Assembly (NCBI RefSeq): GCF_003268675.1
Contig: NZ_CP029378.1
Coordinates: forward strand, 6,448,001-6,512,000
DNA length: 64,000 bases
Source: Streptomyces bacillaris
GTDB taxonomy: Bacteria > Actinomycetota > Actinomycetes > Streptomycetales > Streptomycetaceae
Direction of reading: 5' to 3'
Shown here piece after piece: positions 10,000-64,000 of the stretch. Position 1 is the first letter of the stretch. Every line of letters begins with the position of its first letter. The translations under genes and the position numbers were made by a program. Under the pieces are notes generated by a model that saw nothing but the letters and a program-made list of their open reading frames with translations, did not search any database and was not told the DNA's origin.

Positions 10000-10809
10000 A
10001 TGAGCGACGATTCCCCGCACCTCGTGCACATCGACGGCCGCCCGGCGACCACCGACGACCTCACGCCCCTCGCCTTCGCGGGCCACGCCCACTTCACCGC
10101 GATGCAGCTCCGCGACGGCCGGGTCCGGGGCCTGGACCTCCATCTGGAGCGGCTGCGCTCCGCGTCGGTGGAGCTGTTCGGCCGGGCCCTCCCCGAGGAC
10201 GTGGTCCGCGCCCGCCTCCGTACCGCCCTCGCAGGGGCTCCCACCGCCGACCTCTCGCTGACGGCCACGGTCTCCTCCACGGCCGGCGAGTTCACCGCCG
10301 CCGACGGCGACCTGACGCTCCTGATACGGACCGGACCGCCGTCCTCCGGCCCCCGCGGCCCGCTCGCCCTCGCGGCCGTGGAACACGAGCGGTTCCTGCC
10401 GCACCTCAAGCACGTCGGAGAGGTGGCCAAGACCCACCTGCTCCGGCAGGCCGCCGCCGAGGGCTTCGACGACGCCGCCTTCCTGGACCGCGAGGGCCGG
10501 TTCAGCGAGGCGACGATCTGGAACCTGGTGTTCTGGGACGGCGAGTCGGTGGTCTGGCCCGAGGCCCGGATCCTCACCGGTACGACGCTGGGCATCGTCC
10601 GCAGGCAGCTCACCGCCCTCGGCATCGCACAGCGGACCGCCCCGGTCACCCCCGCGGACCTGCCCGCCCTCGCCGGGGCGGCCGTCATGAACTCCTGGAC
10701 CCCCGGCATCCCCGTCCACCGCATCGGCCCCACCGGACTGCCCGCTGCACCCCGGTTCCTGGAGGCGCTGCACGGGGCGTACGCAGCGGAACCGCCCGTC
10801 GCGCCGTGA
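10000..10809 (+). CDS. aminotransferase class IV (aminodeoxychorismate lyase-like)
   Basis: 269 residues, PLP fold type IV, the group of PabC and branched-chain or D-amino acid aminotransferases. The N-terminal HIDGRPATTDD opening, GRVRGLDLHLERLRSAS, a Lys in VGEVAKTHLLRQAAAEGFDDAAFLD that fits the PLP Schiff base, SEATIWNLVFWDG and ILTGTTLGIVRRQL all follow the family pattern. Whether it makes 4-aminobenzoate or aminates another acid cannot be told; no pabA/B is adjacent. The ATG at 10000 is preferred over an upstream in-frame ATG that would overlap the promoter. Confidence 0.85.
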   Translation: MSDDSPHLVHIDGRPATTDDLTPLAFAGHAHFTAMQLRDGRVRGLDLHLERLRSASVELFGRALPEDVVRARLRTALAGAPTADLSLTATVSSTAGEFTAADGDLTLLIRTGPPSSGPRGPLALAAVEHERFLPHLKHVGEVAKTHLLRQAAAEGFDDAAFLDREGRFSEATIWNLVFWDGESVVWPEARILTGTTLGIVRRQLTALGIAQRTAPVTPADLPALAGAAVMNSWTPGIPVHRIGPTGLPAAPRFLEALHGAYAAEPPVAP

Positions 10810-10826
10810 CGGGCGCGACGGGCGGT
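10791..10826. terminator. bidirectional terminator hairpin
   Basis: Perfect 15-bp stem (10791-10805 with 10812-10826) and a 6-nt loop that contains the stop codon of the aminotransferase gene. It sits between two convergent genes and can serve both strands. Confidence 0.85.
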
Positions 10827-10837
10827 CCGGTCCGGGC

Positions 10838-12664
10838 TCAGCCCACGTACGCGCCGCTCGCCGTCAGCCGCAGGGCCGTGTCGATCAGGGGGACGTGGCT
10901 GAACGCCTGCGGGAAGTTGCCCACCTGACGCTGGAGGTTGGAGTCCCACTCCTCGGCCAGCAGGCCCAGGTCGTTGCGGAGCGACAGCAGCTTCTCGAAG
11001 AGCCGGCGCGCCTCGTCGACCCGGCCGATCATCGCCAGGTCGTCCGCCATCCAGAACGAGCAGGCCAGGAACGCGCCCTCGTCGCCCTCCAGGCCGTCGA
11101 CGCCCGCCTCCTCGCCCTCGGTGGGGTAGCGCAGGATGAAGCCGTCCTCCGTGGACAGCTCCCGCTGGATCGCCTCGATGGTGCCGATGACCCGCTTGTC
11201 GTCCGGCGGCAGGAAGCCCATCTGCGGGATGAGGAGGAGGGAGGCGTCCAGCTCCTTGGAGCCGTAGGACTGGGTGAAGGTGTTGCGCTCCTTGTCGTAG
11301 CCGCGCTCGCAGACGTCCCGGTGGATGTCGTCGCGGAGCTCGTACCACCGCTCCAGCGGGCCCTCGACGTCCCCGGACTCCACCAGCTTGATCGTCCGGT
11401 CGACGGCGACCCACGCCATCACCTTGGAGTGCACGAAGTGGCGGCGCGGGCCGCGCACCTCCCAGATGCCCTCGTCGGGCTCCTCCCAGTGCTTCTCCAG
11501 ATACTCGATCAGCTTGAGCTGGAGGCCCATCGCGTAGTCGTTGCGGGTCAGGCCGGTCATGTGCGCCAGGTGGAGCGCCTCGGTGACCTCGCCGTACACG
11601 TCGAGCTGGAGCTGGTTGGCGGCGCCGTTGCCGACGCGGACCGGGGCGGAGTTCTCGTATCCGGGCAGCCAGTCCAGCTCCGCCTCGCCCAGCTCGCGCT
11701 CGCCGGCGATGCCGTACATGATCTGCAGGTTCTCCGGGTCGCCCGCGACCGCCCGCAGCAGCCACTCGCGCCACGCCCGGGCCTCTTCCCGGTAGCCGGT
11801 GCGCAGCAGCGAGGAGAGGGTGATCGCGGCGTCCCGCAGCCAGGTGTAGCGGTAGTCCCAGTTCCGTACGCCTCCGATCTCCTCGGGGAGCGAGGTGGTC
11901 GGCGCGGCGACGATGCCGCCGGTGGGGGCGTACGTGAGGGCCTTGAGGGTGATGAGGGAGCGGACGACCGCCTCCCGGTAGGGCCCGTGGTACGTACACT
12001 GGTCGACCCATTCGCGCCAGAACAGCTCGGTGGCCTCCAGCGACCCCTCCGGGTCGGGGAGGGCGGGCGGCTCGCGGTGCGAGGGCTGCCAGCTGATCGT
12101 GAACGCCACCCGGTCGCCGGGGCCGACGGTGAAGTCGGAGTAGGTGGTGAGGTTCTCGCCGTAGGTGTCGGCCTGGGTGTCCAGCCAGACGGAGTCCGGC
12201 CCGGCGACGGCGACCGTACGGCTGTCCACCTTGTGCACCCACGGCGTCACCCGGCCGTAGCTGAACCGCATCCGCAGCTCCGAGCGCATCGGCACCCGGC
12301 CGCTGACGCCCTCCACGATCCGGATGAGCTGCGGGGCGCCGTCACGCGGCGGCATGAAATCGGTCACCCGTACGGTGCCGCGCGGCGTGTCCCACTCCGA
12401 TTCCAGGATCAGCGAGTCACCGCGGTAGCGGCGCCGGTCCGCCGGGAGCGGTTCGGTCCCTTCGGCCCGCGCCGGACTCAGCCGCCAGAAGCCGTGTTCC
12501 TCGGTGCCCAGCAGTCCCGCGAAGACGGCGTGCGAATCGAAGCGGGGCAGGCACAGCCAGTCCGCCGTGCCGTCCCGGCAGACCAGGGCAGCGGTCTGCA
12601 TGTCTCCGATGAGTGCGTAATCCTCGATGCGCCCGGCCACGTGCGTCTCCAGTCGAACGGCCAT
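10838..12664 (-). CDS. glycoside hydrolase family 15 protein (glucoamylase/trehalase-like)
   Basis: 608 residues, no signal peptide. An N-terminal beta-sandwich starts with RIEDYALIGDMQTAALVCRDGTADWLCLPRFDS; the (alpha/alpha)6 domain has IGGVRNWDYRYTWLRDAAITL, the conserved GH15 motif, followed by LPGYENSAPVRVGNGAANQLQLDVYGEV and HFVHSKVMAWVAVDR. Actinobacterial proteins of this layout include a phosphate-dependent cytosolic trehalase, so alpha,alpha-trehalose is a plausible substrate, though this is inference. The ATG at 12664 gives the family N-terminus; the frame is open further upstream without similarity. Confidence 0.9.
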   Translation of the reverse strand: MAVRLETHVAGRIEDYALIGDMQTAALVCRDGTADWLCLPRFDSHAVFAGLLGTEEHGFWRLSPARAEGTEPLPADRRRYRGDSLILESEWDTPRGTVRVTDFMPPRDGAPQLIRIVEGVSGRVPMRSELRMRFSYGRVTPWVHKVDSRTVAVAGPDSVWLDTQADTYGENLTTYSDFTVGPGDRVAFTISWQPSHREPPALPDPEGSLEATELFWREWVDQCTYHGPYREAVVRSLITLKALTYAPTGGIVAAPTTSLPEEIGGVRNWDYRYTWLRDAAITLSSLLRTGYREEARAWREWLLRAVAGDPENLQIMYGIAGERELGEAELDWLPGYENSAPVRVGNGAANQLQLDVYGEVTEALHLAHMTGLTRNDYAMGLQLKLIEYLEKHWEEPDEGIWEVRGPRRHFVHSKVMAWVAVDRTIKLVESGDVEGPLERWYELRDDIHRDVCERGYDKERNTFTQSYGSKELDASLLLIPQMGFLPPDDKRVIGTIEAIQRELSTEDGFILRYPTEGEEAGVDGLEGDEGAFLACSFWMADDLAMIGRVDEARRLFEKLLSLRNDLGLLAEEWDSNLQRQVGNFPQAFSHVPLIDTALRLTASGAYVG

Positions 12665-58755: not shown

Positions 58756-60728
<1,973 letters not shown>

Positions 60729-60928: not shown

Positions 60929-61408
60929 GTGAATCGCATCGGGATCACCGGTCACCGCACCATCCCCGCCCGGGCCCGGAGCCATGTGCTCGCCGGACTT
61001 GGCTCGGCCCTCTCCGGGCTCGACGGCGCCACGGAGGTGCTCTCCAGCCTGGCCGTCGGCGCGGACCAGCTCTTCGCGGACCTGGCCCTCGCCCGGGGCG
61101 CCAAGCTGACGGCGGTGATCCCCAGCGGCGACTACGAGGCCTGCTTCGACACCGCCGCCGACCTCGCCCGCTACCGGCTCCTGAAGTCCCGCGCCGCCCA
61201 GGAGATCCGCCTCGACTTCCCGCACTCCACCGACGAGGCGTACTACGCGGCGGGCGCCTACATCGCCGACCACTGCGACCTGCTGCTGGCCGTCTGGGAC
61301 GGCCACCCGGCCCGGGGCCTCGGCGGCACCGGCGACATCGTGGACTACGCCCGTACGCTGGGCCGCCCGGTCACCGTCATCTGGCGGGACGGCGTGGAGC
61401 GGGGCTGA
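60929..61408 (+). CDS. SLOG-domain (Rossmann-like) protein
   Basis: 159 residues, one alpha/beta domain. It opens IGITGHRTIPARARSHVLAGLGSAL, then LSSLAVGADQLFADLALARGAKLTAVIPSGDYEACF, and ends ADHCDLLLAVWDGHPARGLGGTGDIVDYARTLGRPVTVIWRDG. The glycine-rich GITGH loop and the WDG-x-PARG-GGTGDIV strand-loop are the SLOG pattern: nucleotide-derivative sensors in conflict and signalling systems. It converges on the SLATT-like gene 18 bp away. GTG start; the spacing to a ribosome site is poor. Confidence 0.82.
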   Translation: MNRIGITGHRTIPARARSHVLAGLGSALSGLDGATEVLSSLAVGADQLFADLALARGAKLTAVIPSGDYEACFDTAADLARYRLLKSRAAQEIRLDFPHSTDEAYYAAGAYIADHCDLLLAVWDGHPARGLGGTGDIVDYARTLGRPVTVIWRDGVERG

Positions 61409-61426: not shown

Positions 61427-62356
61427 TCATGTACGGTGCCGGACCAGCCAGTCCGTGTGCTCGGGCGAGACGATCCGCTCGGTCTCGAAGACCGCCACCG
61501 GCCACTGCCGCTCGGTGAGCGTGGTCTCCATCGCGGCCTGCATCGACTCCAGGTCGTCCTCCACCAGGGAGTGCGCGGAGATCAGCGGATGGTGGCGGCG
61601 CAGCTCGTTCCAGGCGAGACAGGCCGCGCCGGCCGCCGACAGCACCCCGGTCAGTCCGAGCGAGCGCCCCACCCCGAAGGTCTGCAGCACGCTCAGCACC
61701 AGCGCCGGCAGGGTCAGCGCCACGATCGCCCCGGACCAGACGAGCGCACCGCGCCGGGAGACCAGCCGCCGTCTGCGGTACCACCGCCGCTGCTCGATCA
61801 GCCGGTCCCGCACATAGGTCTCCTTGCGGACGGTGAAGGCCTTGTCCCGCAACTCCCGCATGGATTCCGTGATGACCGCGCCGTCCTTCTCCGTCATCGT
61901 CTCCCGGGGATCGGTCCAGCCCACCTTCCGCAGTTCCTGGAGCCCCTCCTCCAGCCGGCTGGCGAAGAGCGCTTCGGGGTGCCGGGCCGAGGTGTCGAAG
62001 GGGGAGCCGTGGACCGCGTACCGCCAGCAGAGGGACTTGATGAACTCCGCCGCGGAGCGGTTGAGTTGCCAGTGCGACTTTGCTTTGCGGCGGGAGGCGA
62101 GGTAGGTCGTGAACAGGACACCCAGATACGCCAACACAGCCGCGCCGTAGAGGAGCTGGACGGTCAGCCCGTCCTCGGCGTGCCAGGGGAGCGCCGCGGG
62201 CACCGCGCCCGCCACGAGCAGCGCCAGCTGGGCCCGGGTGGTGTTCACGGCCTCCCGCTGGCGGGAGACGGCGATGGCGTCCGTACGGTGGAAGAGAGCG
62301 GGCAGGTCGGCGTTCCTGAAGACCATGCTCTGAAGAGGTCCGGGAATCGCCGTCAT
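61427..62356 (-). CDS. DUF4231/SLATT-type two-helix membrane protein
   Basis: 309 residues from an ATG with GGGAG 6 bp upstream on the coding strand. Two hydrophobic hairpins: LALLVAGAVPAALPWHAEDGLTVQLLYGAAVLAYLGVLFTTYLAS (residues ~40-85) and LVWSGAIVALTLPALVLSVLQTFGVGRSLGLTGVLSAAGAACLAW (~205-250), with long amphipathic stretches between. This is the SLATT/DUF4231 layout, predicted pore-forming effectors paired with SLOG or nucleotide-sensor proteins. Divergent from fxsA. Confidence 0.82.
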   Translation of the reverse strand: MTAIPGPLQSMVFRNADLPALFHRTDAIAVSRQREAVNTTRAQLALLVAGAVPAALPWHAEDGLTVQLLYGAAVLAYLGVLFTTYLASRRKAKSHWQLNRSAAEFIKSLCWRYAVHGSPFDTSARHPEALFASRLEEGLQELRKVGWTDPRETMTEKDGAVITESMRELRDKAFTVRKETYVRDRLIEQRRWYRRRRLVSRRGALVWSGAIVALTLPALVLSVLQTFGVGRSLGLTGVLSAAGAACLAWNELRRHHPLISAHSLVEDDLESMQAAMETTLTERQWPVAVFETERIVSPEHTDWLVRHRT

Positions 62357-62567
62357 GTTCACTCCCGTATCCCATGTAGTCGGGGCTCCGTTGTCGGAAT
62401 GAAAGATTCCGAACCATTTGGAGCAGTCCCGTATGTCACTCGGACTACGAGGCCGCGACACGAGTTGCGCACCTTGTTCCTGAGAGTAAAGTCGTGCCGC
62501 CAGGCACTGCAATGGTGCAACTGGCGGTGGTGCCCCCCTGACCGGAACGAGCCCCTCTAGGACGGCC

Positions 62568-62735
62568 GTGAAGACCTACGAATCATCCCCCATCTTCGCT
62601 GATGCGAAGAAGAGCCGTGTGCCGCTCGCCAAGATCGATCTCTCCGGTGGCCAGGCCGCCCGGAAGCTTGCGCGCGTGGTTCCCGCGGCCGACGGTCGCC
62701 TTCCCCGCATTTCCACTTTCAACTCCGCTCTCTGA
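62568..62735 (+). CDS. fxsA: FxSxx-COOH RiPP precursor peptide FxsA
   Basis: 55 codons from a GTG with AGGA 5 bp upstream: leader KTYESSPIFADAKKSRVPLA, a middle rich in Arg/Ala, and the C-terminus ISTFNSAL. The last five residues FNSAL fit the F-x-S-x-x-COOH rule exactly. In this family the radical SAM enzyme FxsB, encoded next, links the Phe ring to the Ser beta-carbon to form a three-residue cyclophane. Too short for ordinary gene calling, so it is easily missed. Precedes fxsB by 85 bp. Confidence 0.9.
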   Translation: MKTYESSPIFADAKKSRVPLAKIDLSGGQAARKLARVVPAADGRLPRISTFNSAL

Positions 62736-62774
62736 GACCCTCTCCGAAGGCTTCGGTTCCCTTCCGAAGGCTTT

Positions 62775-62797
62775 CGCGCCGACGGAATTCCGGCGCG
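62775..62797 (+). terminator. hairpin between fxsA and fxsB (possible attenuator)
   Basis: CGCGCCG and CGGCGCG form a 7-bp stem with a 9-nt loop, preceded by a direct repeat TCCGAAGGCTT (62747 and 62765). It could cause partial termination so that precursor outnumbers enzyme. No T-run, so weak. Confidence 0.5.
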
Positions 62798-62820
62798 GAA
62801 CGCTGGACTAGACTGGGGGA

Positions 62821-64000
62821 ATGACAGGACCCGCGGTCCCGTTCCGCGAAATCGTTCTGAAGGTTCACAGCAGGTGCGATCTGGCCTGCGACCATTGTTA
62901 TGTCTACGAACATGCTGATCAGAGCTGGCGAACCCGGCCGAAGACAATCTCTGACCATGTTGTTTCCCGGACGGCTCGACGCCTGGCCGAACACGCCAGG
63001 ACCCACGCCCTGCCCTCCGTGACAGTGATCCTGCACGGAGGGGAGCCCCTGCTCGCCGGACCGGCCCGACTGCGCCTGGTCTGCGAGGAGTTCACCTCGG
63101 CCCTGGCGGGCATCGCCGAACTGGATCTGCGGATCCACACCAACGGCCTCCAGCTCAGCCCCCGTTACCTCGACCTGTTCGACGAGTTCGACGTCAAGGT
63201 GGGCATCTCCCTCGACGGCGACCGCGCCGCCAACGACCGCCACCGCCGCTACGCCGACGGCCGCAGCAGCCACGCCCGGGTCCTCAAGGCCGTGGACCTG
63301 CTCCGCCAGGAGCGCTACCGCCACCTCGACCTCGGCCTCCTCTGCACGGTCGACATCGCCAACGACCCGGTCGCGGTCCTCGACGCGCTCACCGAACTCC
63401 GGCCGCCCCTCATCGACTTCCTCCTGCCGCACGCCACCTGGGCCGAGCCGCCACCGCGCCCGGACGGATCGCCCACCGCCTACGCCGCGTGGCTGCTCAC
63501 CGTCTTCGACCGCTGGCAGGAACAGGGGCGGCCGGTGCCGGTCCGCCTCTTCTCCTCGGTCCTCTCCACCCTCGACGGCGGCCCCAGCCTCACCGAATCC
63601 CTCGGACTCGCCCCCACGGACCTGGTCGTCGTCGAGACCGACGGCCAGCTGGAGCAGGTCGACTCCCTCAAGAGCGCCTACGAAGGGGCCGCCGCCACCG
63701 GCTTCGACGTCTTCACCCACAGCTTCGACGAGGTCGCCGCGCACCCCGGGGTCCGAGCGCGCCAGCTCGGCCTGGCCGGGGTCAGCGCGACCTGCCGCCG
63801 CTGCCCCGTCGTACGCTCGTGCGGCGGCGGGCTCTACACCCACCGCTACAGCCCGGCAGGCGGCTTCGACAACCCCTCCGTCTACTGCGCCGACCTGGCC
63901 GCGCTGATCCGGGGCATCGAGGAGCGCACGGCCGCCGCCTGCGAGTCGCCCGCCGTCCGAGACCCGGGCGAACTGCTCGCCGCCCAGCAGGATCTGACCC
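62821..64000 (+). CDS. fxsB: radical SAM/SPASM peptide-maturase FxsB, 5' part
   Basis: 393 residues seen; the gene runs past the window end. The radical SAM cluster motif CDLACDHC (Cys19, 23, 26) is followed by YVYEHADQSW, VILHGGEPLLAG, RIHTNGLQLSPRYLDLFDEFDVKVGISLDG, and the auxiliary-cluster SPASM region ATCRRCPVVRSCGGGLYTHRY. This is the FxsB pattern: a 3-residue-cyclophane-forming enzyme acting on FxsA. The ATG lies directly after GGGGGA, a very short ribosome-site spacing, so the start is less certain than the family call. Confidence 0.92.
   Translation, partial: MTGPAVPFREIVLKVHSRCDLACDHCYVYEHADQSWRTRPKTISDHVVSRTARRLAEHARTHALPSVTVILHGGEPLLAGPARLRLVCEEFTSALAGIAELDLRIHTNGLQLSPRYLDLFDEFDVKVGISLDGDRAANDRHRRYADGRSSHARVLKAVDLLRQERYRHLDLGLLCTVDIANDPVAVLDALTELRPPLIDFLLPHATWAEPPPRPDGSPTAYAAWLLTVFDRWQEQGRPVPVRLFSSVLSTLDGGPSLTESLGLAPTDLVVVETDGQLEQVDSLKSAYEGAAATGFDVFTHSFDEVAAHPGVRARQLGLAGVSATCRRCPVVRSCGGGLYTHRYSPAGGFDNPSVYCADLAALIRGIEERTAAACESPAVRDPGELLAAQQDLT

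Follow-up and report, generated by a model that had tools for sequence, protein, structure and literature searches.

The fxs locus described here, at and beyond the right-hand end of a 64,000-nucleotide stretch of the Streptomyces bacillaris chromosome (hereafter the window; positions 6448001–6512000 of a 7.89 Mb genome in a single contig), probably encodes a complete FxSxx triceptide system, composed of fxsA, fxsBH, fxsC, fxsT and a hydrolase gene, which would act within the cell and be coupled to a neighbouring SLOG–SLATT gene pair. To my knowledge, the biological role of FxSxx peptides has not been established, and the linkage with SLOG and SLATT, beside TIR/STAND proteins, provides a direct hypothesis and a defined gene set for it. 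The SLOG and SLATT neighbours resemble an intracellular immune or cell-death switch, and thus offer a clue to what these peptides are for. This association was not found in the literature searched, which included few subscription journals and is not proof of novelty.

The FxsA precursor and its conserved C-terminus

The fxsA gene (62568–62735, plus strand) encodes a 55-amino acid FxSxx-COOH precursor, with a GTG start and the C-terminus FNSAL. Its product scores 35.9 bits against TIGR04268 (curated cut-off 28; E 6e-9), and the GTG at 62568 agrees with the homologues, several of which start at the aligned point. The possibility that fxsA is a chance ORF was ruled out by this score and by the conserved homologues. 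A first-pass annotation of the same DNA had proposed this peptide, with these coordinates, length and C-terminus, and had placed it 85 bp before fxsB; the ORF coordinates agree with both, and the FxSxx-COOH and FxsB family models, which it suggested running, each matched above their curated cut-offs. A structured RNA was sought between fxsA and fxsB and is not supported (z −0.56).

Precursors with the leader VPLxxID...GRV and an FNSAL-like end precede fxsB in dozens of Streptomyces, and FxSxx peptides above the curated cut-off are found in 54 of 150 sampled Streptomyces genomes. An initial tail count, in which FxS was present in 59/59 peptides, was discarded as circular, because the ORFs had been picked by their F.S.. 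end. When the ORFs preceding fxsB were instead searched with a profile of the leader only, with the tail excluded, 44 precursors were obtained, in which the Phe is present in 44/44 and the Ser in 42/44. The FxSxx end, on whose conservation the first-pass annotation had made its proposal depend, is therefore retained in homologues. Both sequences lacking the Ser (L147, ending in FDAAL, and L115, ending in FDAAI) have an Ala at the expected crosslink position. In L140 and L154, which belong to a sister clade with RGFRL in FxsB and no SLATT, the candidate precursors end in FQSSIG and FSSSVG respectively, one residue beyond FxSxx.

FxsB possesses an inactivated hydroxylase domain

The fxsB gene starts with an ATG at 62821 on the plus strand, runs through the end of the window at 64000 and continues to window-equivalent position 65256, encoding the radical SAM/SPASM part of an 811-amino acid FxsBH fusion. 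The 62821 product scores 597 bits against TIGR04269 (cut-off 370), and possesses the CxxxCxxC motif, within SRCDLACDHCY, and the SPASM motif CRRCPVVRSCGGG, which bears out its earlier naming as FxsB. Both gene starts given by the first-pass annotation were correct, but its end at 64000 left out half of fxsB; likewise the fxsA–fxsB pair stands, but the dead hydroxylase extension and the membership of SLOG and SLATT had been missed. The pair is a typical representative of a known family.

FxsB very likely joins the Phe and the Ser of FNS by a C–C crosslink, based on its family membership, on the precedent of MscB, and on ChlB being its closest solved relative (PDB chain 9gm3, E 4.7e-77 for the radical SAM domain). 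The predicted three-residue cyclophane, encoded by the F-N-S codons at 62718–62726 (plus strand), would link a Phe ring carbon to the Ser C-beta, by analogy with MscB, whose InterPro family (IPR026335) I take to be equivalent to TIGR04269.

The full-length protein matches NF040587, the family for the FxsBH form with an inactivated beta-hydroxylase extension, with 458.5 bits (cut-off 225), and its C-terminal half scores 38.0 bits against TIGR04267, under the cut-off of 40. This dead-hydroxylase form is thus already present in NCBIfam, and among 395 sampled genomes of the class, matches to NF040587 above cut-off are confined to Streptomyces. In an alignment of fused FxsB proteins, RGFRR (residues 698–702) is found where active relatives have HEFQH, and the intact HExxH of an active, ChlBH-type hydroxylase is therefore absent. 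The motif is lost, with the domain kept in frame, in 53/53 sampled sequences forming one clade in the radical SAM domain tree (SH-aLRT 98). Outside this clade, the L142 FxsB shows a separate motif change, with SEFQR for HEFQH.

Judging from these sequences, the fused domain, having lost its metal-binding motif, probably serves just to hold the peptide. That it retains some other catalytic activity is an improbable alternative: all fused proteins of the clade retain the extension in frame and the region around it is conserved, as such an activity would have it, but both the His residues and the Glu of HExxH are missing across the clade, and NCBIfam calls this form inactivated.

Downstream genes

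The first-pass annotation had predicted FxsC and TPR protein genes beyond the window, and extending the sequence to the right indeed revealed fxsC and fxsT. The fxsC gene, encoding a TIR-like protein, is located at window-equivalent positions 65368–66717 (TIGR04276, 256 bits; NF040588, 240 bits), and fxsT, encoding the FxSxx TPR protein, ends at window-equivalent position 70646 (NF040586, 1037 bits), with all three matches above cut-off. FxsC retains the TIR motif SxRYFxSxxCxxE, and its Glu is present in 69/70 homologues. FxsT comprises a MinD-like domain with the motif KGGTGR, a TIR domain, an NB-ARC domain and TPRs; the position matching the FxsC motif Glu is variable.

Convergent with fxsT is a gene for an alpha/beta-hydrolase, on the minus strand (L004:7796–8707, window-equivalent 70795–71706). 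Because it is conserved near fxsT in cassettes with active and with inactive FxsBH, and in other families too, this hydrolase may be encoded by a core fxs gene, perhaps with a role in peptide processing. Further downstream (L004:10840–15674), inspection by eye points to a dnaE2-like polymerase gene and to an imuB-like candidate, located where a Y-family polymerase gene would be expected.

The SLOG and SLATT genes

Divergent from fxsA is a gene encoding a SLATT protein (61427–62356, minus strand), with SLATT_3 and SLATT_1 matches (PF18184, 129.9 bits, and PF18181, 110.7 bits, both well over their cut-offs; NF033610, 189 bits) and two hydrophobic segments (2TM). The longest ORF starts at 62512, and the Met at 62356 is a better match to the homologue starts. 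SLATT proteins have been predicted to be nucleotide-responsive pore formers (PMC7159879).

The next gene (60929–61408, plus strand) encodes a 159-amino acid protein with the motifs GITGHR...GADQLFA...DGxPARGxGGT, for which Pfam gives a weak, subthreshold match to DprA. Its AlphaFold model, built with 48 sequences, has a pLDDT of 93.6, and a Foldseek search with this model identified YpsA (2nx2, E 9.5e-8), DprA and LOG proteins, which on the strength of the predicted fold places it in the SLOG superfamily. A more distant match, at rank 15, is the SLOG domain of ThsA with 3'cADPR (7uxs).

Borders of the locus

An S1-type protease gene (59481–60728, plus strand, for the longest ORF; PF02983/PF00089) forms the left border of the locus, and a second S1-type protease is located on the other side, the two being ∼11 kb apart in the S. 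bacillaris genome. Eight empty sites, in genomes that lack the system, have the two proteases ∼0.15–1.6 kb apart, and SLOG, SLATT, fxs and the hydrolase gave no match in the intervening DNA. Since the proteases are kept where all of these are missing, they are border genes, and were ruled out as part of the system. When used as a syntenic anchor, dnaE2 was matched in 17/150 genomes at threshold, making it a poor general anchor, yet sufficient for this empty-site test.

A decayed locus is present in one genome (G005; L148:11138–11416, minus strand, and 10308–10987, plus strand): through a deletion, the SLOG gene has been fused to fxsT at the latter's 3' end, and the hydrolase gene has been broken up.

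Linkage between the fxs cassette and SLOG–SLATT

In the 150-genome Streptomyces sample, NF040587 is above cut-off in 42 genomes, and a SLATT orthologue (threshold E ≤ 1e-60) is also found in 42, with 40 genomes common to both (Fisher p about 1e-31, a statistic that ignores common ancestry). Both genes are not always together: G040 and G054 possess an inactive FxsBH and no SLATT, and in G057 SLOG–SLATT is kept while fxs and the hydrolase are gone. One lineage has the fxs operon in reverse orientation at its usual site, with SLATT and SLOG still adjacent. The pair is also found with other cassettes: in G007 (L135), SLOG–SLATT lies beside an fxs cassette of another type, with an unfused FxsB (465 bits), and in a genome from another family (G441, L170), a cassette with active FxsBH has a SLOG protein and a SLATT protein (SLATT_3/SLATT_1) alongside.

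I also searched 84,980 species genomes for the SLOG family only, with fxs not used as a criterion. The best 80 loci were kept, so that this survey covers close relatives, and 65 of these had full flanks; SLATT was present in 64/65, FxsB in 62/65, and FxsC and FxsT in 61/65 each. At three loci (L232, L263 and L136), the flanking sequence fetched around SLOG–SLATT contains no fxs cassette.

In the FxsB tree, the cassettes with SLATT group together in a 49-sequence clade (support 97), 47 of whose members have SLATT. The sister sequences (L140, L141, L149 and L154) have lost HExxH and have no SLATT, suggesting that the hydroxylase motif was probably lost first, and that SLOG–SLATT joined later. 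The SLATT trait changes only five times on this tree, and the linkage is therefore partly inherited gene order; the counts above are not independent, as most co-occurrences derive from one ancestor. Most fxs cassettes outside this clade are without SLATT, which is thus not a core fxs gene. Within this Streptomyces lineage, comparison of the gene neighbourhoods nevertheless indicates that the SLOG and SLATT genes belong to the fxs unit.

Proposed function

In the model proposed here, FxsB would form the Phe ring–Ser C-beta bond in the F-N-S of FxsA, and the crosslinked peptide would act within the cell, where FxsC (TIR) and FxsT (NB-ARC/TPR) would receive it as a signal or bind it as a ligand. 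The SLOG protein would be a nucleotide sensor, and the 2TM SLATT protein a membrane effector. No transporter or export gene is encoded among the genes of the segment, and the FxSxx product therefore most likely acts inside the cell. One can go further, and imagine a peptide-gated, Thoeris-like immune circuit, where the Phe–Ser cyclophane would tune, or set off, FxsT as the STAND component, FxsC would turn NAD+ into a nucleotide (a predicted activity), and the SLOG protein would sense this nucleotide and open the SLATT membrane effector; I regard this specific version as speculative and rather doubtful.

It is possible, although somewhat unlikely, that the fxs cassette and SLOG–SLATT are two separate systems, sharing a site in an old Streptomyces lineage with no functional coupling. 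This would agree with the few SLATT trait changes on the FxsB tree, with the persistence of SLOG–SLATT without fxs in G057, L232 and L263, and with fxs cassettes without SLATT being common. Against this, the inversion of the fxs operon in place left the genes together, the empty sites lose the whole segment together, and close relatives of the SLOG protein are almost never without fxs, among the matches listed; SLOG–SLATT moreover accompanies the unfused fxs cassette of G007 and the active one of a second family. An ordinary secreted RiPP cluster, making an antibiotic or bacteriocin and having the TIR/STAND proteins as regulators, would account for the known triceptide enzyme and precursor and for the S1-type proteases on both sides, but I consider it improbable, as the segment includes no transporter or exporter, and the flanking proteases remain at empty sites, as border genes. 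An intracellular FxSxx system coupled to SLOG–SLATT is thus the reading I favour.

Comparison with known systems

The closest comparison is with the FxsB triceptides exemplified by MscB, which makes a C4(Phe)–Cbeta(Ser) bond (PMC11002830). In S. bacillaris the precursor and the maturase likewise pass TIGR04268 and TIGR04269, and the F-x-S is near the C-terminus; the bond is established for MscB, whereas that of S. bacillaris is predicted from the genes. In ChlBH, according to work cited in PMC12636437, the fused HExxH domain is a working alpha-ketoglutarate hydroxylase, and not a peptidase. The radical SAM domain of S. bacillaris FxsB is closest to ChlB (9gm3), but in contrast to the active hydroxylase of ChlBH, it is fused to a domain where RGFRR replaces HEFQH.

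FxSxx peptides have been predicted to be signals or toxins of AP-ATPase conflict systems, including standalone ones with a MinD-like domain, and the HExxH domain of FxSxx systems was taken as a peptidase (PMC7159879). The S. bacillaris locus resembles the standalone actinobacterial systems described there, which combine fxsA and a radical SAM enzyme with a protein carrying AP-ATPase, TPR and MinD/ParA-like domains, and for which a conflict role was also predicted. It differs from these in that the HExxH domain, their presumed peptidase, is dead in the S. bacillaris FxsB, and in the presence of SLOG and SLATT, which the section of that source consulted does not mention with FxSxx.

PADLOC did not recognise the gene set of the locus, and gave no informative match. 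The signature of Thoeris ThsA is SIR2–SLOG or TM–macro, and neither a SIR2 nor a macro domain was found in the genes of the segment. In Thoeris, which comprises the TIR protein ThsB and the SLOG-containing ThsA, the ThsA SLOG binds 3'cADPR produced by a TIR protein (PMC11204291). The S. bacillaris SLOG protein differs in that it stands alone, without SIR2, and is paired with a SLATT membrane protein; its fold resembles that of the ThsA SLOG only distantly, and signalling from TIR to SLOG to SLATT in this locus would be an analogous arrangement, suggested by the gene content. What the S. bacillaris locus and Thoeris have in common is that TIR proteins are encoded alongside a SLOG-fold protein (PMC11204291).
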